64,000 nt of DNA from Theionarchaea archaeon (lineage in GTDB: Archaea; Methanobacteriota_B; Thermococci; Methanofastidiosales; SZ-28-30): assembly GCA_018992685.1 (NCBI GenBank), contig JACVGT010000011.1, positions 62,001 to 126,000 on the forward strand, given 5' to 3'. How positions within the stretch are numbered: the first letter of the stretch is position 1; the number at the start of each line of letters is the position of its first letter. The translations under genes were made by a program, and so were the position numbers. The notes beneath the pieces were generated by a model that saw only the letters and a list, made by a program, of their open reading frames with translations, made no database searches and was not told where the DNA came from. This document shows positions 3,173 through 29,411 of the stretch, in pieces.

Positions 3173-4500
3173 AGGTCGCTCTGACCATTGCAGGATCTGA
3201 TTCAGGTGGCGGTGCAGGGATACAGGCTGATTTGAAGACCTTTGCCGCCTTCAAGGTGTATGGGACCAGTGTCATAACGTCGGTGACAGCTCAGAATACG
3301 GTAGGTGTTTTGGGCATACATGATATGCCTGCTGAATTTGTGGGTGCTCAGATGGATGCAGTTCTGACAGATATCGCGGTCGATGCTTGTAAAACAGGGA
3401 TGCTGTCTAATGCTGACATTATCAAGGTGGTTGCTGAAAGGCTGGAGAAATACAACATGGAGAAGTATGTACTGGACCCTGTCATGGTGGCCAAGAGTGG
3501 AGATGCCTTGCTGCAGCAGGATGCAGTCTCCTCTCTCATTCGGTTCCTGATCCCCAGAAGTCATGTCATAACACCCAACATGGACGAAGCTTCACTGATC
3601 ACAGGGATGTCTATACAGACTGTGGACGACATGAAGGATGCCGCTCTAAAGATCAAAGAGATGGGTGCTCGCGCTGTGGTGGTGAAGGGTGGCCATCTGA
3701 AAGGAGATGCTGTTGATGTCTTTTGTGGAAAAGACATAGAGTTATTGAGCTCAGAGAGGATTGATACTCGCAATACGCACGGAACAGGGTGTACCTTCTC
3801 TTCAGCTATTGCAGCAGGGTTAGCCAGGGGAGATGATTCCCTTACGGCTGTGAAGAGAGCAAAACAGTACATTACCGATGCCATCAGGTATTCATTCCCC
3901 ATAGGGGAGGGACATGGACCTACTAACCATTTTGCTGTATTATACAGGGAAGCAGAGAAGTTTTCGATTGTGAATCAGTTGAGAGAGGGATTCAACCTGG
4001 CTAAATCTTCCGAGATTGCAGATGTCATACCTGAGGTGCAGTCAAACTTGGTGATGGCCCTGTCTGATGCAGATTCTGTTGAGGATGTGGCAGGATTTCC
4101 AGGGAGAATCGTACGATACAAAGAGACTGTAGAAACAGTTGGATGTCCTGAGTTTGGAGCTTCATCACATATGGCGCGAGTGGTCTTGGCAGTCATGACG
4201 TATGATCCTACCATTCGATCTGCCATGAACATTCGTTATGGAGACGATGTCGTGGAAGCAGCTGAAAGAGCAGGGTATACTCTGGGGAAGTTCTCCAGAG
4301 AGGACGAACCACAGCAAATCAGAGAAAAGGAAGGATCTACCTTGGACTGGGGAACCATCACGGCAATACAGGAGTTGGGAAAACCTCCAGATATAATCTA
4401 TGATCTGGGTGGAATTTCTAGGGAAGCCATGATGCGGGTGCTGGGGAAGAACCCATTGGATGTGGTTCAAAAGGTGATAAAAATATCACAGGGTTTGTAA
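3169..4500 (+). CDS. thiDN: ThiD-ThiN fusion: HMP/HMP-P kinase plus archaeal thiamine-phosphate synthase
   Basis: A 443-residue bifunctional enzyme. Residues 1-260 are a ribokinase-fold ThiD domain with the [18 protein letters not shown]-terminal motif and [13 protein letters not shown], whose glycine and cysteine form the anion hole. Residues about 265-443 are the ThiN domain, which in archaea joins HMP-PP and thiazole phosphate to thiamine phosphate in place of ThiE. The order ThiD-ThiN is the usual archaeal fusion. It is the last gene of the thiamine uptake operon, so imported HMP can be phosphorylated and condensed by one protein. The sequence after the stop (4501-4530) forms a weak imperfect hairpin followed by T-rich DNA. 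Confidence 0.93.
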
Positions 4501-4742
4501 GAAGGACGTTCCTGCGTTCTTTTCCCTATTCTCTTCTGGATTTTGTATTTCTATTTTGATCTCACTGTGAGCTGGGTCATGAATGTGGACGGGACTAATC
4601 AGGAGAACGTGTTGGTACTACGTATTGCCCGTCAAGGAAATTCATGCGTGGAACATCAAGAGGTGCATGAAACCCCTGGGGTTCACACCCATGACCAGAG
4701 AATATGGGTAAATGAGAAAGAGAAAAAAATGAGAAAGAAATG

Positions 4743-14293: not shown

Positions 14294-17224
14294 ATGATTA
14301 AAGAATTCCACATTGAAGATGCCCAGAAGCTGGCTGACATGTTGAATAGGAGTGACGAAGCGTGGCCAGGGGGACTCACCCACGGCATAGACTTCACGGC
14401 AAAAAGCGTAATGGAAGATCGAAAAAGAGAGAGTATTCTTGCGACGTACTGTGCATGGGATGATGACAATATCGTGGGACTTACGGAAATCATCGAGTTC
14501 TGGAGAGATACCAATGTCCTGTATATCGACTTTCTCAACGTTGAACCCACCCATCATGGTCGAGGATATGGAAGAGATCTCCTCAAGACCTGTGTTGAGA
14601 AGGCTACTGAGTTGAAAAGTAAGAGACTGGATCTTCATACATGGTCAGGTAACATGAAAGCAGTTCCCCTCTACAAGAAGACAGGGTTTTTCTGGGTTCC
14701 TAAAACGTCTGTGCACATGAAGAATTTCCTCCCCTTGATCCTGAGCCTTCAGGCTGCCAAATTCTTCTTCGAAAAGCACAATTGGTATACTACCTTCAAG
14801 AGAGAACTGAAGGTTGAAGAAGATGACTATGATGGCATATATCCCTACCACTGGGAAGAAGCGGAGGATATCCTCTCTGTGGTGATAGATGCAGAATCAG
14901 GGGGGGTAATCCAGTTCGAAAACAACGATTTTACAGTCTACCAGAAGGTGGAACCCGTATTCGTGGGAGAAAAAGCTTCTGTGACATGGGAGATTAAGAA
15001 TAAGACCCCCACTCCCCTGGAGGTTGCATTGATATCTAGAGGAGAAGACGGTATTGTGATGGATTTCAGGAAATCCTTCACCGTTCAGGATGTCGAGACA
15101 GTGACGGCCACAGTCTCTGTTGACCCAGACATTGAAATCAGGAAAAAAGAGGAGCCTCCTCATCAGCTCTCTACCGACGTCATCATCAATGGAATACTTC
15201 TCCCTCTTGTTTCAGGATTGCGGGTAACTCATGGAGTAGAGGTCTCTACATTTCCCGAGTTTGTGGTGGTTCCTCCAGGCGAGCAGTCTATCATGGTGAT
15301 ACTCAAGAACAATAGGCAGAACCATGTTGAAGGGGTGATTACGTGCCAGAATACCGGTGAATCCCACGAGTTCAGTATAGAACCTGGATACAGCGAAGGT
15401 ATCCCCTTTACTCTGCGTTTGGCACGAGACTGTGAGCTGCGATTTTCCATAGAGGGCGCCCTGCCCATCCACATAGTACCCGTACGGGTGACGACGGGTG
15501 GCGCAGTACTAATGCAGAAAGGGAGAGACGTCATTCTTGAAAATGCTCACGCCAGAATGATTGTTTCGCTGGCGGGAGGGGAAACTTCCATCTTTGTGAA
15601 GAACACTCAAGAAATGGAGATCAAGTACGCCGGTGACGAACTGGGACCTCCGTACTGGCCATCAGAGTTGTTTAAAACATCGTACACGGTAAGAATGAAG
15701 CAGTGCACTGGCAAAGTTAGTGCAGAATTCACTGCCTACTCGAAAAAGTATGACACCACAGTTGTTCGTAAAGTTGAAATGGACGCTGGTCCTTTGATCA
15801 AAATCGAGTATTCCTTCACCCCACAAAGAGATCTTTACGTGCAGTTTGGCGGAGAGGCCAGTTTCGCCGGAGGGCTCTTAACTCTTCCGCTCACAGAGGG
15901 ATTCATTTCAGAACCTACTGTTGATGAGGATTTTCCTCTGGGTCATGGAGACCTTCCTGAAGACTCCACAGCATATGAAGAACAGTGGGCGTGCCACCAG
16001 ATGGGTGACGCAGTCCTCGGTGTCATATGGGAGAAATGCGTGAAAATGAACGTGAGTAGATATTCATTCCCCGGGATCATCCTGGACACCCGGAATCCGC
16101 GTCCATTCTACCTGTACGTGGGAAGAGGGACCTGGAAGGATGTGAGGAACAGCTGGTCTTTGCTGCACAACGTGGCGGTACCACCTGCGGAACCTAAAAG
16201 TGTGTGGGATGTCAGCCCTTCCCTGGTGGTGACTGTCGACGATATGATTACTGAGCAATTCACTCTCAGTAACAGGAGAAAAAGAACTCTGGAAGGGAAC
16301 GTAACCGGGATCCCTTTTAAAGCGGCGAGAGGGTCACCCTTTACCTTTGAAGCTGCCCTTGAGGCTCCAGACGTTGGCATCCACGAACGAGTTCTGCACA
16401 TGGAGACAGATCTCTTTTCCAGAAATATTCCCGTGATGGTTGTCAGAGCAGGAAAAAGGAGTAACGTCGTCGTCCTTGAAGAAGGAGATACCATACAGGT
16501 TAATAATGGATTATACCGGTTTGAAGTTGCTCCATCGTACTATGGATCAGTGGTCTTCTGGGGGGATAACGTGAACCACCTGCTGACCCCATATCCAGAG
16601 ACCACACAGCTTGCCTGGTTCCGCCCCTGGTATGGGGGGATCCATCCAGTCGTCTTTGCTGAAAAAAGAGATTTCCCTGGTCGAATGCATAAAGAAGCTT
16701 TCAGCTGCGCTATTGCAGAAAGAAAAACACACGGTATTTCATGGAAGGGCGTTACCGTGACATCTACCCTCCAGGAGATTAAGGGAATCGGCCTGGAAAC
16801 TTCCTACCTGACAGCAGGACACAGCAATCTTCTGGTCATCTGCCACACACTGAAGAATCTGACATCTGCCCCCCGTTCTGTGTATTCAGGAATGACATTT
16901 TTTGTACAGCCAGACGGTTCTCTAACAGATTCCACCTTGTACTACCGCAGCCCTCAATTGGTTCAAAGAAGACGAACCTCCTATGGAGGGCTATCAGCGG
17001 GCAGGGAATGGGCTGCGGTCCAAGGAACATCAACATTCCTCACCGTTGTGGCAGACAGTATTCATGCACTTGATCTGGGAAGAGAGGGCGCTCATATATT
17101 CAGCGCCAGAAAACGGGACATTCCCCCACACGGTTCTGTCACTGAATTCCAGTATTTAGTGGCAGCACACTCTCTGGAAGAATCGCAGGCATATAAGAGT
17201 TTGAGGGGATTGCAGTGGATCTAG
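14294..17224 (+). CDS. GNAT acetyltransferase fused to a very large beta-rich region
   Basis: A 976-residue protein. Residues 1-150 are a GNAT N-acetyltransferase domain with FLNVEPTHHGRGYGRDLL (acetyl-CoA loop HGRGYG, residues 88-93) and a C-terminal LYKKTGF motif. Residues about 150-976 are soluble, mostly beta-strand in character with many aromatic residues, and include a stretch near 560-640 reminiscent of carbohydrate-active or mutarotase-like beta-sandwiches. I do not recognise the family. GGTGATTTC before the ATG fixes the start. The stop overlaps the ABC ATPase start by 10 nt, so this enzyme is translated together with an exporter, suggesting that it modifies or recognises the exported substrate or a surface glycan. 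Confidence 0.75.
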   Translation: MIKEFHIEDAQKLADMLNRSDEAWPGGLTHGIDFTAKSVMEDRKRESILATYCAWDDDNIVGLTEIIEFWRDTNVLYIDFLNVEPTHHGRGYGRDLLKTCVEKATELKSKRLDLHTWSGNMKAVPLYKKTGFFWVPKTSVHMKNFLPLILSLQAAKFFFEKHNWYTTFKRELKVEEDDYDGIYPYHWEEAEDILSVVIDAESGGVIQFENNDFTVYQKVEPVFVGEKASVTWEIKNKTPTPLEVALISRGEDGIVMDFRKSFTVQDVETVTATVSVDPDIEIRKKEEPPHQLSTDVIINGILLPLVSGLRVTHGVEVSTFPEFVVVPPGEQSIMVILKNNRQNHVEGVITCQNTGESHEFSIEPGYSEGIPFTLRLARDCELRFSIEGALPIHIVPVRVTTGGAVLMQKGRDVILENAHARMIVSLAGGETSIFVKNTQEMEIKYAGDELGPPYWPSELFKTSYTVRMKQCTGKVSAEFTAYSKKYDTTVVRKVEMDAGPLIKIEYSFTPQRDLYVQFGGEASFAGGLLTLPLTEGFISEPTVDEDFPLGHGDLPEDSTAYEEQWACHQMGDAVLGVIWEKCVKMNVSRYSFPGIILDTRNPRPFYLYVGRGTWKDVRNSWSLLHNVAVPPAEPKSVWDVSPSLVVTVDDMITEQFTLSNRRKRTLEGNVTGIPFKAARGSPFTFEAALEAPDVGIHERVLHMETDLFSRNIPVMVVRAGKRSNVVVLEEGDTIQVNNGLYRFEVAPSYYGSVVFWGDNVNHLLTPYPETTQLAWFRPWYGGIHPVVFAEKRDFPGRMHKEAFSCAIAERKTHGISWKGVTVTSTLQEIKGIGLETSYLTAGHSNLLVICHTLKNLTSAPRSVYSGMTFFVQPDGSLTDSTLYYRSPQLVQRRRTSYGGLSAGREWAAVQGTSTFLTVVADSIHALDLGREGAHIFSARKRDIPPHGSVTEFQYLVAAHSLEESQAYKSLRGLQWI

Positions 17225-21123: not shown

Positions 21124-21231
21124 TCATTGTCATGGTGGTTCACTCACTACAGAGTGCGTGGTCTCTCTGCCATGCACTCACCTTTTTCTGCTTGGCTTTC
21201 CATGAAGTAATTCGTGTACGGAGGAATTTGT

Positions 21232-21891
21232 ATGGCAGATCAAACCTTGGAGATAACCTACTGGGAATCCGCCGGAGAAGTCAACACGGATAACCTCCTC
21301 AAAATCGTCAGAGAATGCGCCCTCCAACGTGATATTCCAGTAATAGTAGCCTCAGAAACTGGAAAGAGTGCATTGAGAGCACTCCAAATATTCAAAGACA
21401 CATCAATTCGCATGGTGGTGGTCACCCATTTCCCCGCCACGACGTGGGGGCCCAAGGGGAATATTCCTATTGGGCTTTTGAGAAATGAATACACAGAAGC
21501 AAGGAAAACGCTCCTGGACCACAATATTACCATAGTCCAGGGCACAAGGCCTTTTGCTCCCCCTTCCCGATCCATTGAGTGGGGATATCCAACGCCCGAA
21601 GCTGTAATGGATAAGACACTTGAACTCTTCGGGGCGGGAACTAAAATCGCTATTGAAGCTGCAATCATGGCTACAGATTCTGGAGCGGTCACTGACGGAG
21701 AGGAAGTCCTCTCCTGTGCAGGAACGTTCAAGGGATTGGATTGCGCTCTCATAGTAAAGACTACCTACAGCATGAATGTCTTCAGTCAGTTTGAAGTGCG
21801 GGAAGTCCTTGCCAAGCCCCGATATAGAGTAACGCAGCTTCCTGAATACACCTTTGACCATTGGAAGGGTGATCTTGAGCAGTATTACTGA
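21232..21891 (+). CDS. Pyruvate-kinase C-terminal (alpha/beta) domain-like protein
   Basis: A 219-residue stand-alone version of the pyruvate kinase C-terminal domain: IVASETGKSALRALQIF near the start and AIMATDSGAVTDGEEVLSCAGTFKGLDCALIV later. It lacks the catalytic barrel and so is probably a ligand-binding protein or an unrelated enzyme. ATG at 21232 is chosen because GGAGG is 7 nt upstream; the frame also opens at 21214. Confidence 0.7.
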   Translation: MADQTLEITYWESAGEVNTDNLLKIVRECALQRDIPVIVASETGKSALRALQIFKDTSIRMVVVTHFPATTWGPKGNIPIGLLRNEYTEARKTLLDHNITIVQGTRPFAPPSRSIEWGYPTPEAVMDKTLELFGAGTKIAIEAAIMATDSGAVTDGEEVLSCAGTFKGLDCALIVKTTYSMNVFSQFEVREVLAKPRYRVTQLPEYTFDHWKGDLEQYY

Positions 21892-22159
21892 CTATTATTA
21901 ATCGGCGTGAATGAGGTATGTCAGTCTTCAATAAAAAAGAGAAAGGAGGATGATATGGCGCAATACTATTATTAATCAATAGTATATAAAGCTTTCGGTT
22001 CATGACTCATATTTCGTCCTGATCACTTCACTTCATAAGCACATTCATTCAACCATTGCACGAAGTGGGACCTTCTCCTATGGAAAAACTCCTGAAATCC
22101 CCTCTTATTTTTTTCATCATCCATTCTCATTATTACACGACAGTTTAAATAGAAACCTT
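21892..22159. other. Intergenic stretch before the RiPP precursor
   Basis: It holds a perfect Shine-Dalgarno (AAAGGAGG, 21942-21949) followed by only a six-codon frame (MAQYYY, 21955-21975), a palindromic TATTATTAATCAATAG region and T-rich DNA. No ordinary gene is present. Confidence 0.5.
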
Positions 22160-22167
22160 TTTAAATA
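22160..22167 (+). promoter_or_regulatory. TATA box of the RiPP precursor gene
   Basis: TTTAAATA in a CCTTTTTAAATAATCC context. Transcription should start near 22188, giving a short leader with the ribosome site AAAGGAGGTG (22195-22204) 6 nt before the ATG. A second TATA-like TTTAAATAG lies at 22144-22152. Confidence 0.65.
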
Positions 22168-22210
22168 ATCCATATCATAAGTAATAGATAAGCTAAAGGA
22201 GGTGTAACAA

Positions 22211-22351
22211 ATGATAAATGTGCCTATGGTATTTGAGGGTCCTGCCCTGCTGGCCAACACAATGGTTCCGTTAGGGCGGGGGACTAATGTCTGCTGCTAC
22301 AATGATACTGATGGAGACTACTACTGCTGCATCAAGACTGAAGTCCTATAA
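22211..22351 (+). CDS. RiPP precursor peptide with paired cysteines (46 residues)
   Basis: A 46-codon gene with an optimal Shine-Dalgarno, its own TATA box and its own terminator, immediately before two radical-SAM SPASM enzymes and a PqqD-like protein. The N-terminal half (MINVPMVFEGPALLANTMVP, then LGRG) looks like a leader with a GRG border at residues 22-24. The C-terminal half has Cys28-Cys29-Tyr-Asn, an acidic DTDGD turn, then Tyr37-Tyr38-Cys39-Cys40 and a short tail ending EVL. The near-symmetrical CC/CC arrangement around the acidic turn is what one expects of a core for thioether cross-links. I know of no described family with this sequence. Function (signal, antimicrobial, cofactor) is unknown. 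Confidence 0.85.
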   Translation: MINVPMVFEGPALLANTMVPLGRGTNVCCYNDTDGDYYCCIKTEVL

Positions 22352-22357
22352 AGAATT

Positions 22358-22385
22358 GTTTTTTCTCTTTTTTTGTCTTTTTCCG
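22358..22385 (+). terminator. Poly-T terminator behind the precursor gene
   Basis: GTTTTTTCTCTTTTTTTGTCTTTTT begins 7 nt after the precursor stop. It would end most transcripts there, so the precursor can be made in excess of its enzymes, as is usual for RiPP clusters. From here to 22591 no gene is seen. Confidence 0.75.
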
Positions 22386-22591
22386 ATTTGGGAAATACGT
22401 TGTGAATGGGGAGGTTGTGCTAGTGTCATTCAAAAGTCGTCTATCTTGTCAGGGTGAGATTATACATTCATATGCAATCAGACGGTCATGTGATTGCCAT
22501 GGAAGCAGAATCAGAATCGTACCTTGTGTCATAAGAGTCCAGTGGTTCTCTTCGTATCCCTTTTGTCCCCTCTCCACAGAGACGTGGTAGC

Positions 22592-23680
22592 ATGCTGGCA
22601 AAAGTGGAATTGACGGCCCGCTGCAATTTGAACTGTATGCACTGCAGCGCATCCATTTATAGACCCTCTCCAGAATGGAAGACAAGCCAATTACTAGGGC
22701 TACTTGAACAGCTCATAGATAATGGATATGATAGCTTCGATCTCAAAGGGGGTGAACCGTTTATCCGTTCTGACATATTCGAGATATTGGATTTCCTGGA
22801 ACGACACGATGCTTCATTCTTTCTTTCCACCAATGGACTTCTTCTTGATGAAGAAAAGATACGCAGGGTGCTCTCCTATCAGAGGCTTTCGACCTTCACT
22901 GTCAGTCTTGACGGCGCAACGAAAGAGACACACGAGGCCATGAGAGGAAAGGGCACATTTCATCCAACTCTAGAAATCATTAGGAGGATCGCTGAAACAA
23001 GAGAAATGCTAGGTTCACAGATACGGTTTGGTCTCAACTATGCCCTGACAAAGGTCAACTACCAGGAAATCAAAGATGTCTTTCACCTTGCAGATGAGCT
23101 TGGATTCAGTGCAGTGTTTGTTCTCTGCCTGTCTCTTATCGGCAACGCTCTTGAACATAAGGGTGACCTGTTCTTGCTAGAAAGAGACGAGCTTGCTGCG
23201 CTGAAGGAAGGAGCCACTGTTCTGAGGAAGATAGATATTGCTCGTCAGATCAGAGGGCTGTCTCCACTCGAATTCAACGTTGAGTTGTTCCCCTATAAAT
23301 GGAAGTGCCGGCTGATGAAATGGTCAGGACATTACAAAGGTTTCATAACAAAGAACCAGTGTAGTGCTGGGGTCAGCGAAATATATGTCGGAGCCGACGG
23401 TACAATCTATCCGTGTGAAGGAGTGAGAGTCTTTCTGAAGATGGTGGAAGAGGAAGTTGGACATTACACACGACCAAGTGTTTGGAATTATACAATCAAT
23501 GAGGCGAGACAGGAGGAATCTTTCAAGAAGATTGTAGACTTCCTCCATGATTACGACCGATTGTTTGAGTCCATAGAGCCCTGCAACACATGCGAACACC
23601 TCAGAAAATGTACAATATGTCCCCTGTTTGCCCGGGCAGACGGAAAGGTGAATAGATGCACAGAAGAGGTGTTGATTTGA
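22592..23680 (+). CDS. Radical SAM/SPASM RiPP maturase 1
   Basis: A 362-residue enzyme. The radical-SAM cluster motif CNLNCMHC (Cys11, 15, 18) sits at the very N-terminus, followed by KGGEPFI (SAM-binding GGE), a conserved FFLSTNG strand and FTVSLDG. The C-terminal SPASM domain has Cys in NQCSAG and GTIYPCEG, then CNTCEHLRKCTIC and a final RCTEE, seven cysteines enough for two auxiliary Fe-S clusters. SPASM enzymes make thioether or carbon-carbon links in peptide cores. It has no N-terminal RRE of its own, consistent with the stand-alone PqqD-like protein two genes on. The ribosome site is weak; the start is set by distance to the cluster motif. Confidence 0.88.
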   Translation: MLAKVELTARCNLNCMHCSASIYRPSPEWKTSQLLGLLEQLIDNGYDSFDLKGGEPFIRSDIFEILDFLERHDASFFLSTNGLLLDEEKIRRVLSYQRLSTFTVSLDGATKETHEAMRGKGTFHPTLEIIRRIAETREMLGSQIRFGLNYALTKVNYQEIKDVFHLADELGFSAVFVLCLSLIGNALEHKGDLFLLERDELAALKEGATVLRKIDIARQIRGLSPLEFNVELFPYKWKCRLMKWSGHYKGFITKNQCSAGVSEIYVGADGTIYPCEGVRVFLKMVEEEVGHYTRPSVWNYTINEARQEESFKKIVDFLHDYDRLFESIEPCNTCEHLRKCTICPLFARADGKVNRCTEEVLI

Positions 23681-23771
23681 TGTATTATTTCGAGATCTTT
23701 TCACGCGAGCAAAGACGTTGGATGAATGGAGCTGGAGTACTCTTCAGAAGATCTGGAATCTGGGTGACGTC

Positions 23772-24893
23772 ATGAAGGTGAGACTTGACATTACAACTCG
23801 GTGTAACCTCAATTGCCTCCATTGTGGAGCGACGGAATTCAAGACAGAGAGAGAATGGACAACTGAGGAAGCACTCCAAGCTTTTGAGAGCATGATTTCT
23901 TATGGTATAGACCACTTTGATTTTCTAGGCGGAGAGCCATTTATTCGCAAGGACATCCTGGAACTTTTCTCCCATTTGAGTGATCAAGGCGCGAGGATTC
24001 TCGTGGTTACCAATGGTCTACTCCTGAATGAGGAAATTATTGATTTTCTGGCCAATCTGGAAACCTTCTCCGGAATTTCTGTGAGCATTGATGGGGCATC
24101 AAGAGAAGTGCATGAGACTATTCGCGGCAAAAATACATTTGACCGTACTGTAGCGAATGTACAGGCCCTGTTATCCAGAAGAAATAGGAGAACCCCATCG
24201 TTCACTGTTGGCCTTACCTGTGTTTTGAATCGGATGAATGTTCTGGAATCTGGCGCAATGATGGAACTGGCGGATCAGATTGATGTGGATAGTGTTTCAT
24301 TCACACCTATGGGATGGATTGGCAATGCCAGGAAAAACAAAGATGACCTGTATATAGACCCCCAGGAAGAGTTCACCGCCTATGATAAGGCAATTCGCAG
24401 AGTAATCCAGATTAACAGAGTTCGTGCAATTAAGGGAAAACATCCTTTACGGTTTCCTATCGATAGCATACCTTTCACCTGGAAATATCACTTTGTGAAA
24501 AAGTATCCCTTGGTTCACCAGATAAGTGGTAAATTCAAGTGCTTGGCTGGAACGGGGACATTTCACGTGGACGGTTCAGGAGTGTTGTACCCCTGCGAGG
24601 CTGTCAAAATTCATAGAGCATCAATAGAGTCTGAGATCGGGGAGTACAGGAGCATGTCTCTGCCCGAGTACACCTTTGAAGAGATTGTCAAGAGTGGATT
24701 TTTCAAGAAAACTGTAGCATACATAAGAGATAGACATCATCTGACCGAGAACGTTGTACCATGTAAAGACTGCAAGTACGGTGATGGATGCAGCGTCTGC
24801 CCACTTCATGCGAGGTCTGAAGGAATCGTCCGTAATTGTGTGGAAGATACCATGAAGGGTGTAGTTGAAAGAGGTGATCTGCTTGAATCCTGA
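23772..24893 (+). CDS. Radical SAM/SPASM RiPP maturase 2
   Basis: A 373-residue paralogue of the preceding enzyme: CNLNCLHC at residues 11-18, LGGEPFI, ILVVTNG, GISVSIDG, and a SPASM domain with KCLAG, GVLYPCEA, CKDCKYGDGCSVC and NCVED (seven cysteines). I chose ATG 23772: GGTGA is 4 nt upstream and the distance to the first cysteine equals that of maturase 1; the frame also opens at 23718. Two such enzymes for one precursor suggest two different modifications, or one acting on each CC pair. It overlaps the RRE gene by 11 nt. Confidence 0.88.
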   Translation: MKVRLDITTRCNLNCLHCGATEFKTEREWTTEEALQAFESMISYGIDHFDFLGGEPFIRKDILELFSHLSDQGARILVVTNGLLLNEEIIDFLANLETFSGISVSIDGASREVHETIRGKNTFDRTVANVQALLSRRNRRTPSFTVGLTCVLNRMNVLESGAMMELADQIDVDSVSFTPMGWIGNARKNKDDLYIDPQEEFTAYDKAIRRVIQINRVRAIKGKHPLRFPIDSIPFTWKYHFVKKYPLVHQISGKFKCLAGTGTFHVDGSGVLYPCEAVKIHRASIESEIGEYRSMSLPEYTFEEIVKSGFFKKTVAYIRDRHHLTENVVPCKDCKYGDGCSVCPLHARSEGIVRNCVEDTMKGVVERGDLLES

Positions 24894-25497
24894 AACAACA
24901 TATGTACACTTAGGTGAAGACGTCTACTGGCACAGGGATGTTTCAAGAGTGTATATTTTCTCTGAGAAGACAGGAGAATCCATGCAAGGAAACATGACAG
25001 CAGGTAGAATCATGGAGCTCTCCGATGGAACCCGCTCTGTTGAAGAGATCGGGAAAACACTCCTGAGAGAGTTCACAGAAGGTCCGAGCTTTGAGGAGAT
25101 TCTAGAATTGGTCACTGACTTCCTCCTAGAATGTGAAAACAGAGGGTTTGTAGAACTACGAGCATCCCCGGCAGAGAAGCCTTCCTCCAGAGATCTCAAG
25201 GAATTTACACACGCTGATGTTGAAAGACTTCTCGAGGACAATGCTGTTCTGATCATAGATGAGACGGCATCTTTTGAGCTCAAAGAAGACGACAGTCTGA
25301 TTACGTACAGCGCCAGGGATGGCGAGTACCTGAAGCTCAGTAAAGAAGAGAAAGAAATCCTCACAATAATGCTGGAGGAGAAACCACTTCAGGAGGTACT
25401 CTCCGATTTTTCACAAGAGCACAAGGAAGGGTCCAGAGATATTCTCGTGGAATTCGCAACACAGTTGCTTAACAGGGGATTGGCAAGAATACAGTGA
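24883..25497 (+). CDS. Tandem PqqD-like RiPP recognition element (RRE) protein
   Basis: A 204-residue soluble protein with two winged-helix units. The first (about 1-85) has the PqqD pattern: strand turn YVHLGEDVYWHR, MTAGRIMELSDGTRSVEEI and a helix ending FLLECENRGFVEL. The second (about 105-204) repeats it: YLKLSKEEKEILTIMLEEKP, then FATQLLNRGLARIQ. RREs bind leader peptides and deliver them to the maturases. TTG 24883 is preferred because GAGGTGAT is 4 nt upstream; another TTG lies at 24865. Translation is coupled to maturase 2. A double RRE is unusual and may bridge two enzymes. Confidence 0.75.
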   Translation: MNPETTYVHLGEDVYWHRDVSRVYIFSEKTGESMQGNMTAGRIMELSDGTRSVEEIGKTLLREFTEGPSFEEILELVTDFLLECENRGFVELRASPAEKPSSRDLKEFTHADVERLLEDNAVLIIDETASFELKEDDSLITYSARDGEYLKLSKEEKEILTIMLEEKPLQEVLSDFSQEHKEGSRDILVEFATQLLNRGLARIQ

Positions 25498-25525
25498 AGG
25501 AGTGTGTTGTGAACTGCTCTCTTCT

Positions 25526-25555
25526 CAAGTCTCGGTTATCACCTCCAAGTCTCGG
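25526..25555. repeat. Two 10-bp direct repeats spaced two helical turns apart, possible operator
   Basis: CAAGTCTCGG occurs at 25526-25535 and 25546-25555, exactly 20 bp apart, in the 137-nt spacer before the B12 radical-SAM gene. The spacing puts both on the same face of DNA, as for a cooperative regulator. No TATA box is obvious between it and the gene, although TCTTAAGATC at 25587-25596 could serve. Confidence 0.45.
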
Positions 25556-25634
25556 AAAGAACAGATGGACCGGCTTAACCGAAAGATTCTTAAGATCTCA
25601 CACAACCCTTCTATAATGAGAAGGAGGCTGCCCC

Positions 25635-27455
25635 ATGATCCTGCAGAGCACAGTACCTTATAGAGAAGACATTCCTAATGCTGCATTAGGATATCTCAAA
25701 GGGTTTCTCACAGCAGAAGGCATTCCTGTCACTGCTCTTTACTGGAACCTCATTCTGGCCCGCAAGATTTCGGAATTTTACAGAGTACTGGCAGATTATT
25801 CGAAGGAGATGGGATTGTTTCATCCCGAGTCCGTTGGGCTATATATTTGCAGGAATCTGCTGACTGACCATTCTGATAATTCCAACCCAACAAAATTTGA
25901 TCTGATTTTCTCATCGATTTTTTCAAGAGAAGAGAGATCAGAGATGATCAGCTCAATACAGGATGAGATTTATCAGTATATCCAGAGGAACAGATTGCAT
26001 GAGGTACCTGTTGTTGGATTCACCTTGAAGACATATCAATGGATGCTGGGTTCCTACTTGATCCAGTGTTTCAAAGAGATGAACACTGATGTCACTATTG
26101 TGATAGGTGGGATTACTGATGAGTCCCAGGCAATCACCTACATGAAGATATTTGAATTGGCTGATTTTGCCATCTGGGGAGAGGGTGAATTCCCACTGGT
26201 GCACCTCGTGAGAACTCTGGAAGAAGGTACAGACGTTTCCGGAGTGCCTAACCTTGTATATCGGAGTGATAAGACCATTCTTTCGACAAAAGTATTTGGT
26301 GACTCGTACTCCCTCCTTGATTCATATCCTTTTGCAGATCACTCTGATTATTTTGAAACTGTGAGGAGGTTCGATCCTTTCAGGAAATACGTCACTATTC
26401 CCATATGGGGAAGCAGGGGCTGCCCATGGGACAGATGCAAATTCTGCACTTCGAGCGGAGGATACAAGTATCGCTTCCGCTCACCGGAAAACATTGTTGA
26501 AGAGATAGAGGTCCAGTCAAAAAAACACCGTGCGGACGACTTCATTTTCGTGGATACTGAACTTGCAGGCAACAAGAAGAGATTCTTGAGTCTTCTGAGA
26601 CTGCTCATGCAGAGTATCGTCAGTAGAAAAAGACCATATCGACTGAGTGGGGAAATATCTCCTCTTTCAATAGACAGAGAGACGGCGCAATACATAAAGC
26701 GTGCGGGATTCGTCAGCCTGCAGATTGGATTTGAGGCAGTCACTGACACACTCTTGAGAAAGATGCAGAAGAGGCAGATGATTGTTCACAACATTGAGAC
26801 ACTAAAGATCGGAGGTCAACATTCGCTACCTCTGAGAGGTCTCAACATCATTAGGGGAATTCCAACAGAAACCGCAGGCGATGTTCTGGAAAGTTGTATT
26901 AATTTGAAATTTTGGCGGTTCCTTCTATCTGATTTTCGTATCAGGCCCACTTTCTTCTTGCTGCACAAGAGATCTCTCTTTGACAGAGAGATGGCAGAAG
27001 AGGAAAAAGAGAAATGGAAGGCGGATTCACTCTGGGATGAGATTGTTCCAGCCCGTCTCGTGCCTGAATCTGATCGATTTGAATTCTCAAGTTTTCGAAG
27101 GGATCGGTTTGACCACCATCACCTGTGGGATATTTTTGAAGATCTCTTGATGTTCTATACAAAACAGAAAAGTTCCTATGAATGGATTGAATACCCAGAT
27201 GGTTCTCTTGTCGAAGAAAAAGGATTCAGAACCCACAAGCTCGCACTCAATCGAGAGCAGACAGATATTTTGGCTTTCTGCGATTCAGTAAAATCACTGT
27301 GTGATGTGGAAGAGAAATTCTCTCACTTGTGTGAGAATGAACTCTTTGAACTTTTAAATGGTCTGAAGACTTTGGGATTACTCTATTACGATAAGGAAAG
27401 CGGCAAGGCCATTTCGATTCTCGACACATCTAAAAGAAGAACTGAAGCGGGCTGA
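25635..27455 (+). CDS. B12-binding radical SAM RiPP-maturation-type enzyme
   Basis: A 606-residue class B-type enzyme. Residues about 1-230 are a cobalamin-binding Rossmann domain (VVGFTLKTYQW, VTIVIGGITDE, WGEGEFPLVHLV, GVPNLVYR). The radical-SAM domain (about 250-450) has GSRGCPWDRCKFC, whose cysteines 263, 268 and 271 make CX4CX2C in place of the usual CX3CX2C, then FVDTELAGNK and GFVSLQIGFEA. The last 90 residues (LALNREQTDILAFCDSV, then GLKTLGLLYYDKE) look like another PqqD-type winged helix. Such enzymes often methylate unactivated carbons. AGGAGG 7 nt before the ATG fixes the start. It ends the cluster. Confidence 0.85.
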   Translation: MILQSTVPYREDIPNAALGYLKGFLTAEGIPVTALYWNLILARKISEFYRVLADYSKEMGLFHPESVGLYICRNLLTDHSDNSNPTKFDLIFSSIFSREERSEMISSIQDEIYQYIQRNRLHEVPVVGFTLKTYQWMLGSYLIQCFKEMNTDVTIVIGGITDESQAITYMKIFELADFAIWGEGEFPLVHLVRTLEEGTDVSGVPNLVYRSDKTILSTKVFGDSYSLLDSYPFADHSDYFETVRRFDPFRKYVTIPIWGSRGCPWDRCKFCTSSGGYKYRFRSPENIVEEIEVQSKKHRADDFIFVDTELAGNKKRFLSLLRLLMQSIVSRKRPYRLSGEISPLSIDRETAQYIKRAGFVSLQIGFEAVTDTLLRKMQKRQMIVHNIETLKIGGQHSLPLRGLNIIRGIPTETAGDVLESCINLKFWRFLLSDFRIRPTFFLLHKRSLFDREMAEEEKEKWKADSLWDEIVPARLVPESDRFEFSSFRRDRFDHHHLWDIFEDLLMFYTKQKSSYEWIEYPDGSLVEEKGFRTHKLALNREQTDILAFCDSVKSLCDVEEKFSHLCENELFELLNGLKTLGLLYYDKESGKAISILDTSKRRTEAG

Positions 27456-27560
27456 TCCTGGCTGGCTGGAACCTTTGAGTCAGAATACACAGAGTCTGGA
27501 AAGAGAGTCTGGAGGCGCAGAAAGGAAAAGAGGTATGAAGTAGTACTGCGGTATTGAAAG

Positions 27561-29411
27561 CTATTCGGGTGCGATTTTTCTTATTTCTGCTGTTAGAATA
27601 TCGTTAATCAGCTTTCCATCCGCCTTCCCTCTTAGTTCTTTCATGCATACTCCCATCAGAGGAGCAACTGCTCGCATACCCTTCTCTTTTATTGTATCTC
27701 TGTTTTCTGCTACTATCTTCCGTACTATGTCTTCAACATCTTCTCGGGAAACTGGTTCCACTGTAATATCCTTGATCTTCTTTCCTTCTGCTATTTTTAG
27801 AAGAATATCATCCAGTGCTTCTTTTACTATTTGATGGTTGGCCAGTCTCTCGAGACAGAGTCTCAATTCATGTTCATCTTCAATGTATTTTCCCTCGTGT
27901 TCCAGTGCCTTGAGGATGTCAACCACTTTGATGAAGAGTGTTGGCTTGAGGTTCATGGTCTGGGTTTCTTCAAATACGTTCTCATATCCAGAATTGAGTA
28001 TTTTTTCTGCATGCTCCGGGGTCAGTGCGTACTCAGTGATGAACCGCTTGAGTTTTACATGAGGCAGCTCCGGCAGCTCTTTGTGGATACCTTCAATCCG
28101 TTCTCCTGAAATGACCAGTGAAGGGATATCTGTTTCTGGATACATTCGTTCTGCTCCCGGAAGAGGACGGGCATATCTGGTGTTCCCATCAGGGAGTGGT
28201 TCTCTGGTTTCTTCAGGTACTCCGGTTAGAGCCTCCTGAGCTCTGACTAACACTTCTTCAAGTGCTCTCCTTGACTTTTCTTCTTCATCAACTACCAGCA
28301 CAAAGGCGTCTTCTCCTTTCCTGTCCAATCTCTGACTGACTGCCGAAACCTCCTGGTCTGTAATTCCGTATGCGGGGAGTTCATCCGAATGGAAAATCCC
28401 TCCCACCCCCACCACTTTCGCCCTGTCAGAAAACTCGGTACCAAGCCGGCGACCTGGCTGTATCTCCTGTCCTACCAGGCCGCAGAATCCAGGAAGGATG
28501 ATACCAAGGACTCTTCCTCCTCTTTCCAGGATATTCTTGATGATTTTTGCCTTTGTGTCTGAGAAGCAGTCAGTCACATCTATAATTCCTTCATGTACAG
28601 AGGCTTTCCTCATTTCCAGCTCTCTCCGTATTTCTACAAGAGCAAGCTGCCTCTGCACTTCTCTTTCAATGTAAACAGCAATCAGATCCAGCTGCTGGAC
28701 ACCCTTGATCTCGCAGCGGGACCCCTCTTTTATAGAGATATTGAGGTCTTCCCTGATGGTGCCAAGTCCCCGCTTCACCTTGAGGGTGGCTCTCAGTACC
28801 TGTCCAATGGCAAGAGCAATATCTCTGGCTTCTTCTGGAGTTCTAATATCAGGATCTGTGGCCACTTCTATCAAGGGAATTCCCAGACGATCTAGCCTGT
28901 ATACCTTCTCTTCTCCCCTTGTTTCTATGATGCGGGCTGCATCTTCCTCTAGACAGACGGTAGGTATCCCATACTGCTTTCCTTCTACGTGCAGGACCCC
29001 ATGAGTGGCCAGGAGCAGTGTTCTTTGAAATCCAGAGGTGTTGGACCCATCGATGACAATCTTTCTCATGGTGTGCACTTCGTCTACAGGGCGTGCTCGT
29101 AGCAAGAGAGAAACTGCAAGACCTGTATCAACAGCTTCATTGCTGAGAGGGTGAGGGGGTTCTTCATCCAGTTCCACAAGGCATACGCTGTCATATCCCT
29201 GGTACACGAATGTTAGTCCCTTCTTGACCTCTGCTAAGGCTGCCTGATCGATTTTCCCTTTTTCGGAGAAAGATGGCCTTAATCTCCTTTTAATTTCGAA
29301 TTGAGGCTCATCTGTACGGAGTACTGTCGGACAGTGGCAGAAAAGCTTTCTCCCTGTATCCAACTGTTGATGGATTTCCAGCCCTACCTTCAATCCAATC
29401 TCCTCATACAT
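27561..29411 (-). CDS. gatE: Glu-tRNA(Gln) amidotransferase subunit E
   Basis: A 616-residue archaeal GatE: N-terminal GLEIHQQLDTGRKLFCHCP, the cradle domain with LDEEPPHPL and RKIVIDGSNTSGFQRT, the AspRS-like insertion (GGIFHSDELPAYGI), and the C-terminal helical and tail domains (RGKADGKLINDIL). With GatD it converts Glu-tRNA(Gln) to Gln-tRNA(Gln), a strictly archaeal enzyme. ATG 29411 is chosen over GTG 29420 because GGTGA is correctly spaced for it. It lies at the end of a minus-strand operon in which a membrane protein gene separates it from gatD. Confidence 0.96.
   Translation of the reverse strand: MYEEIGLKVGLEIHQQLDTGRKLFCHCPTVLRTDEPQFEIKRRLRPSFSEKGKIDQAALAEVKKGLTFVYQGYDSVCLVELDEEPPHPLSNEAVDTGLAVSLLLRARPVDEVHTMRKIVIDGSNTSGFQRTLLLATHGVLHVEGKQYGIPTVCLEEDAARIIETRGEEKVYRLDRLGIPLIEVATDPDIRTPEEARDIALAIGQVLRATLKVKRGLGTIREDLNISIKEGSRCEIKGVQQLDLIAVYIEREVQRQLALVEIRRELEMRKASVHEGIIDVTDCFSDTKAKIIKNILERGGRVLGIILPGFCGLVGQEIQPGRRLGTEFSDRAKVVGVGGIFHSDELPAYGITDQEVSAVSQRLDRKGEDAFVLVVDEEEKSRRALEEVLVRAQEALTGVPEETREPLPDGNTRYARPLPGAERMYPETDIPSLVISGERIEGIHKELPELPHVKLKRFITEYALTPEHAEKILNSGYENVFEETQTMNLKPTLFIKVVDILKALEHEGKYIEDEHELRLCLERLANHQIVKEALDDILLKIAEGKKIKDITVEPVSREDVEDIVRKIVAENRDTIKEKGMRAVAPLMGVCMKELRGKADGKLINDILTAEIRKIAPE

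Follow-up and report, generated by a model that had tools for sequence, protein, structure and literature searches.

A 64,000-nt stretch of contig JACVGT010000011.1 (positions 62,001 to 126,000; assembly GCA_018992685.1, a Theionarchaea archaeon), referred to here as the window, carries on its + strand, between 22211 and 27455, five genes in the order: a short open reading frame (ORF) for a putative precursor peptide, two radical S-adenosylmethionine (SAM) enzymes of SPASM type (SPASM1 and SPASM2), a tandem PqqD-like gene, and a radical-SAM gene of the cobalamin (B12) type. The genome (G000; 3.03 Mb in 45 contigs, with the window on contig C3) has a sister in G001, and its archaeal identity is clear from GatE and GatD just downstream of the cassette, which match archaeal equivalogs at 784.9 bits (cut-off 319.55) and 462.9 bits (cut-off 324). 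A preliminary description had proposed that these genes form a cluster for a ribosomally synthesized and post-translationally modified peptide (RiPP), consisting of a 46-codon gene with Shine-Dalgarno sequence, TATA box, and terminator, two paralogous radical-SAM/SPASM genes, a double PqqD-like gene overlapping the second of these, and a B12-binding radical-SAM gene, all co-oriented; each of these elements was found in place (Table 1).

Table 1. Features of the putative RiPP cassette, in window coordinates. The start codons of SPASM2 and the tandem RiPP recognition element (RRE) were refined by eye from the sequence.
Feature	Position	Strand	Remarks
TATA-like promoter element of precursor gene	about 22158-22167	+	TTTAAATA; CTTTTTAAATAA about 45-53 nt 5' of ATG
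Shine-Dalgarno of precursor gene	22196-22204	+	AAGGAGGTG, 9-nt match, 6-nt spacing
Predicted RiPP precursor, 46 aa	22211-22351	+	MINVPMVFEGPALLANTMVPLGRGTNVCCYNDTDGDYYCCIKTEVL; coding-like codon use, leader motif
T-rich terminator or attenuator in precursor/enzyme gap	22352-22385	+	T-runs of 6, 7, and 5
SPASM1, radical-SAM/SPASM enzyme, 362 aa	22592-23680	+	PF04055 4.5e-21; CNLNCMHC; 7-Cys SPASM pattern
SPASM2, radical-SAM/SPASM enzyme, 373 aa	23772-24893	+	PF04055 2.5e-25; ORF 23718-24893, likely ATG 23772
Tandem RRE, two PqqD-like domains	24883-25497	+	ORF 24865-25497; likely TTG 24883 after AGAGGTGATC; overlaps SPASM2 3' end
Cobalamin-type radical-SAM enzyme, 606 aa	25635-27455	+	TIGR03975 156.3 bits over full length; CX4CX2C; possible C-terminal RRE-like domain
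Whole cassette, absent at syntenic G001 site	22006-27573	.	left edge after conserved 111-bp spacer; right edge in GatE 3' end

The precursor gene is the first of the segment and has the strongest Shine-Dalgarno sequence. Its codon score of 0.157 bits per codon is above that of 61% of equal-length windows from real genes; among non-coding open stretches, just 0.4% score higher. Small ORFs overlapping or following it score zero or less. An ORF at 22423-22590, considered as a second precursor, was ruled out by its non-coding-like codon use. The likely core of the peptide, CCYNDTDGDYYCC (residues 28-40), is roughly symmetrical and includes four Cys. The transcriptional signals resemble those of other candidate precursor genes of the genus: a T-run of at least six follows 11 of 16 of these (vs. 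23 of 369 ordinary genes), and TATA-like elements lie at comparable distances 5' of several. The peptide itself has no match in the profile libraries, including the ScmA model.

The N-terminus of the precursor, MINVPMVFE, contains the motif hxxPxh(h)E (where h is hydrophobic) at residues 2-9 (INVPMVFE). A strict version, hydrophobic-x-x-P-x-hydrophobic-x-D/E near the N-terminus, is found elsewhere in the genus in MYAKP[M/R]LEE (loci L045/L063), MFGTPIFIE (L070), MYKPPMMVD (L072), and MKYVEPEVFE (L056). Five of 17 non-redundant precursors have it, compared with one of 446 gene N-termini, the pattern having been defined post hoc from the peptides and the 17 precursors chosen by hand. The leader sequence fits recognition by an RRE of the PqqD or lasso peptide type: a survey (PMC12710340) attributes a W/Y/LxxP-type recognition sequence to the PqqD, FusE, McjB, and StsC RREs, and a YxxPxL leader motif is described for RREs of this type (PMC10368454).

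A candidate for such an RRE is encoded in the cassette. The first half of the tandem protein both exceeds the PF05402 cut-off (33.6 vs. 23.4 bits; E = 4.9e-8) and has a predicted RRE fold. In the AlphaFold2 (AF2) model (mean predicted local distance difference test score, pLDDT, 78.6), the best fold matches in the PDB include TbiB1 and TfuB1, which were solved with their leaders, with PqqD lower down; by sequence, there is no match in the PDB. The second half is more diverged, gives no direct PqqD match, and includes a low-confidence region at residues 139-154; profiles of the two halves match each other at 97.8% probability, and four of five second halves from homologues do match PqqD. In several paralogous loci, a radical-SAM enzyme has an N-terminal extension of ~90-190 residues before its CX3CX2C motif, compared with only 10-28 in SPASM1 and SPASM2, and domains built into the N-termini of these paralogous enzymes are probably replaced in the cassette by the separate tandem RRE.

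SPASM1 and SPASM2 are each other's closest relatives (35% identical), and both have the CX3CX2C motif and the seven-Cys SPASM pattern. They are assigned as SPASM proteins because of these seven cysteines, as their Pfam SPASM scores (19.0 and 15.8 bits) are under the gathering cut-off of 21.5. Among 396 archaeal genomes, SPASM2 has one other relative at E < 1e-30, 29% identical and in the same genus; among contigs of other genomes, there are distant ones only. Neither enzyme reaches any NCBIfam equivalog, the best score being ~102 bits against cut-offs of several hundred.

The fifth gene product has a Radical_SAM domain (Pfam, 3.3e-15) and the CX4CX2C motif common to all nine paralogous B12 enzymes. 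It is placed in the B12 class because of its predicted fold, as its Pfam B12-binding score (15.7 bits) is under the cut-off of 32.1: the AF2 model (pLDDT 83.7) is closest to TsrM (E = 3.2e-16), OxsB, MgmA, TokK, and CysS. By sequence, it has no match in the PDB and no homologues in viral contigs, and its plasmid homologues are distant bacterial C-methyltransferases (about 27-30% identity). C-methylation is the most likely reading of its activity but not the sole one, because the activities of enzymes of the TsrM/OxsB/MgmA/TokK/CysS kind go beyond methylation, as in the ring contraction by OxsB. The last 80 residues are predicted to have a three-strand, three-helix topology like that of RREs, which is suggestive of another such domain, with a profile probability of only 41-48% and no PqqD match.

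The limits of the cassette are apparent by comparison to one sister genome, G001, which is 88% complete and has the corresponding empty site inside a single contig. Gene order on either side is conserved in G001 (74-91% identity), where a spacer of ~313 bp separates the M29 peptidase gene from GatE. The window retains 111 bp of this spacer at 92% (21895-22005), shortly 5' of the precursor promoter, and the alignment resumes at about 27574, inside GatE. The intervening ~5.55 kb contains the five genes and no others; the window has it, and the syntenic G001 site does not. Because G001 is without exactly this segment, the five genes are considered one unit; the difference fits gain or loss alike. 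The preceding ABC (ATP-binding cassette) transporter and M29 peptidase were considered as export or processing partners and rejected, since G001 keeps both (88-91% identity) without the cassette.

Two further differences or likenesses were seen near the left edge. A pyruvate-kinase C-terminal-domain-like gene at 21214-21891 is also absent from the syntenic G001 spacer, with related copies elsewhere in G001; it lies on the far side of the conserved 111-bp spacer, and was excluded from the cassette as a separate indel. Within that spacer, ~210 bp before the precursor ATG (window 21967-22003), is a ~28-bp promoter-like motif, TAATCAATA(G/C)TATATAAAGCTTTCGGTT, which is kept at the G001 empty site. 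It recurs at about 13 other places in G000 and G001, and the genes downstream of those copies look unrelated.

Loci of similar construction are found elsewhere in the genus. G000 has four more full-length B12-enzyme relatives and G001 has four (33-52% identity), with none in the other 394 of 396 archaeal genomes searched. Most of these eight paralogues adjoin SPASM-type radical-SAM genes (L043, L044, L045, L047, L048, L049), and one of the eight lies on a contig of just 3.4 kb. Tiny ORFs with good ribosome sites are present in several of these loci: L044 and L047 have orthologous peptides with one residue different between the species (MNMTILIEAEEQIMEPLCITEGTGSWCC[R/K]ICHPYV), L048 has two of the form MKFNVKKVE...CL, and L045 has MRMESL...KCGGCACGCFVVNCMGLSAC. 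The preliminary description had proposed searching related archaeal genomes for relatives of the 46-residue peptide beside homologous maturases; none was found in G000 or G001, leaving the peptide without conservation evidence of its own. Several of the paralogous maturase loci do hold tiny peptides. More generally, the two genus genomes have 22 and 33 SPASM domains, compared with 0-9 in 149 other archaea, and in the loci analyzed tiny ORFs with strong Shine-Dalgarno sequences precede 10 of 68 radical-SAM genes vs. 5 of 341 other genes (p = 1.3e-5), a count that includes non-precursors such as an 89-aa protein in L043. Precursor sequences vary widely within the genus, and many are rich in Cys.

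As read from the sequence, the genes, their order, the leader motif, the predicted folds of the RRE and enzymes, and the cassette boundaries describe what is very likely a radical-SAM RiPP biosynthetic cassette of an archaeon. This agrees with the central proposal of the preliminary description, and is concluded because of the codon use of the precursor gene, its leader motif, the RRE fold match, the finding that the segment is there or missing as a whole, and the paralogous loci of the same logic; the general RiPP arrangement, a short encoded precursor with a leader beside modifying enzymes, is present. Several points weigh against it: the absence of precursor homologues, the sub-threshold Pfam scores for the SPASM and B12-binding domains, the lack of a direct PqqD match in the second RRE half, the post hoc origin of the leader pattern, and the lack of any protease or exporter among the five genes.

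The chemistry (in the preliminary description, cysteine crosslinks and possible C-methylation), its order, and the role of the product are inferred, most likely as follows. A promoter of its own and a strong ribosome site would give an excess of the precursor, with the T-rich attenuator holding enzyme expression lower. The tandem RRE would bind the leader via hxxPxh(h)E and present the core (about GTNVCCYNDTDGDYYCCIKTEVL) to SPASM1 and SPASM2. These would work as a crosslinking pair, the most likely products being thioether rings that join the CC...CC cysteines to residues close by. An unactivated carbon would then be altered by the B12 enzyme, most likely through C-methylation, and leader removal and any export would be carried out by proteins encoded outside the cassette.

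The product could conceivably be an intracellular peptide-derived redox cofactor instead, following the logic of pyrroloquinoline quinone (PQQ) or mycofactocin, with core residues crosslinked and reworked and the rest of the peptide degraded. This would suit the RRE, which is of PqqD type, and the leader motif, which is like those that PqqD recognizes, and the idea retains some weight because the cassette includes no exporter (nor a dedicated peptidase, the neighboring transporter and M29 peptidase being kept by G001 without it). It is nevertheless unlikely: the cassette is absent in the sibling species, the varied and often Cys-rich precursors of the genus do not resemble a conserved cofactor precursor, and the PqqE and mycofactocin maturase models give only 65-84 bits, far under their cut-offs of 381 and 265. 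A secreted peptide is favored over a cofactor, from the diversity of the precursors and the presence of the cassette in one species only.

Other possibilities concern the substrate. The best NCBIfam matches include heme b synthase AhbD for SPASM1 (101.9 bits) and, for the B12 enzyme, BchE (81.4 bits), as might be seen if the substrate of the enzymes were a tetrapyrrole or another small molecule, in the manner of AhbD, NirJ, or BchE, with the small ORF being incidental. These scores are far under the respective cut-offs of 500 and 481, however, and the tandem RRE, the coding-like precursor with its RRE-type leader motif, the RiPP-related best full-length family of the B12 enzyme, and the pairing of the same enzymes with tiny peptides in paralogous loci make this very improbable. 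It is also improbable that the enzymes serve a RiPP system whose true substrate is some other peptide or peptides, possibly in trans. Some genus precursors are indeed apart from their enzymes or multi-copy near them (L048, L076, L079), but the 46-mer comes first in the segment, has the strongest ribosome site, is coding-like, and carries the leader motif, and the remaining small ORF of the segment looks non-coding.

By NCBIfam curated cut-offs, the cassette falls in no named system, and no library model names the cluster or its precursor. The nearest by gene content is SynChlorMet (TIGR04248-TIGR04252: ScmD, ScmE, ScmF, ScmA), which likewise has a short precursor and a PqqD-like protein together with two SPASM enzymes, but SPASM1 and SPASM2 score only about 90-96 bits against ScmE (best 95.8; cut-off 400), the precursor does not match ScmA, the cassette has its RRE in tandem form, and it has a B12 radical-SAM enzyme besides. 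In G001, the L072 locus has an ScmA-like precursor (18.6 bits, cut-off 35; E = 0.0017), a PqqD-like gene, and two SPASM genes; an enzyme of this locus is ScmF-like (192 bits, cut-off 400). No paper on "SynChlorMet" was found in the open literature. TIGR03975, the RiPP radical-SAM C-methyltransferases, is the best NCBIfam family of the B12 enzyme and aligns over its full length, but under the cut-off of 281.85 bits, and in the cassette the B12 enzyme has two SPASM enzymes and an RRE as partners. Sactipeptides and ranthipeptides can also combine two SPASM-type enzymes with a Cys-containing precursor (thuricin CD being a two-enzyme case; PMC12093266), but here the RRE is discrete and tandem, a B12 enzyme is added, and the scores are under the cut-offs for known maturases. 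With PQQ and lasso peptide recognition (PqqD, TbiB1, TfuB1) the cassette has an hxxP-type leader motif and RRE fold in common, but no lasso cyclase or PqqE/PqqC genes, and it has two RREs in one protein. Judging from genes alone, it would work like a SPASM RiPP system, and is not assigned to a class (sactipeptide, ranthipeptide, PQQ-type).

According to the preliminary description, no archaeal family is known to have this gene set or precursor sequence. This holds to the extent that no library model covers it and that full-length B12-enzyme relatives are in no other archaeal genus among the 396 genomes, but loci combining B12, SPASM, and tiny-peptide genes recur within the genus, and in SynChlorMet a precursor is already found together with a PqqD-like protein and a pair of SPASM enzymes. 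The cassette is very probably one of dozens of similar ones accumulated by the genus, unlike its relatives. As a radical-SAM RiPP system it is of a known kind, and it is of note for the apparent genus-wide radiation. A broader version is offered tentatively, as somewhat doubtful: a RiPP radiation with tens of SPASM enzymes per genome, diverse precursors, an endemic B12 branch with its own C-terminal RRE-like domain, a new class of crosslinked and C-methylated peptides, and cassettes gained and lost as units. In the literature consulted, characterized archaeal RiPPs are lanthipeptides, with radical-SAM RiPPs appearing as genome predictions (PMC12144867). The genus supplies pairs of precursor and enzyme ready for study, and its two sister genomes show the site of one cassette both occupied and empty. 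This makes it testable whether archaea produce peptides that are both crosslinked and C-methylated, and how several enzymes are served by a single tandem RRE.

Several other loci of the genus have peptides of their own. About 0.5-5 kb upstream of window base 1 (G000:C3:57200-61500; L051 7030-11462) are three consecutive SPASM genes led by a tiny peptide with a Shine-Dalgarno sequence, MKFNVRKLETVSTTVAAADDVVPWKEAKLQCL; its relatives (MKFNVKKVE...W(K/M)E(T/S)K..CL) in L048 (two), L053, and L061 make up a separate precursor family. In L079, the ORF at 16243-16410 and a peptide upstream of 10322 are paralogous precursors that share a leader (MKAISLNKKLW.DV.M..LDFVSPDC..PL..GCG) but have unrelated cores, each rich in Cys, both near SPASM genes and one also near a tandem-RRE gene. 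L052 (7715-7810) and L067 (3419-3514) have orthologous 31-aa Cys-free peptides (..RTIVIGSVNPIVFPKGGIVWAP) directly before a SPASM gene, with the C-terminal part identical between species and a different N-terminus. The SPASM enzyme of the C13 locus (L044 9711-11054, - strand) scores 383 bits against CefB, the maturase of a peptide with Cys at every fifth position (cut-off 600); the L044 peptide is without this spacing. In L076, two near-identical peptides of 24-25 aa (MEPRVEDYLDATCVASTGGKME..; 4358-4435 and 4650-4724), each with a perfect Shine-Dalgarno sequence, lie just past four SPASM-type genes.

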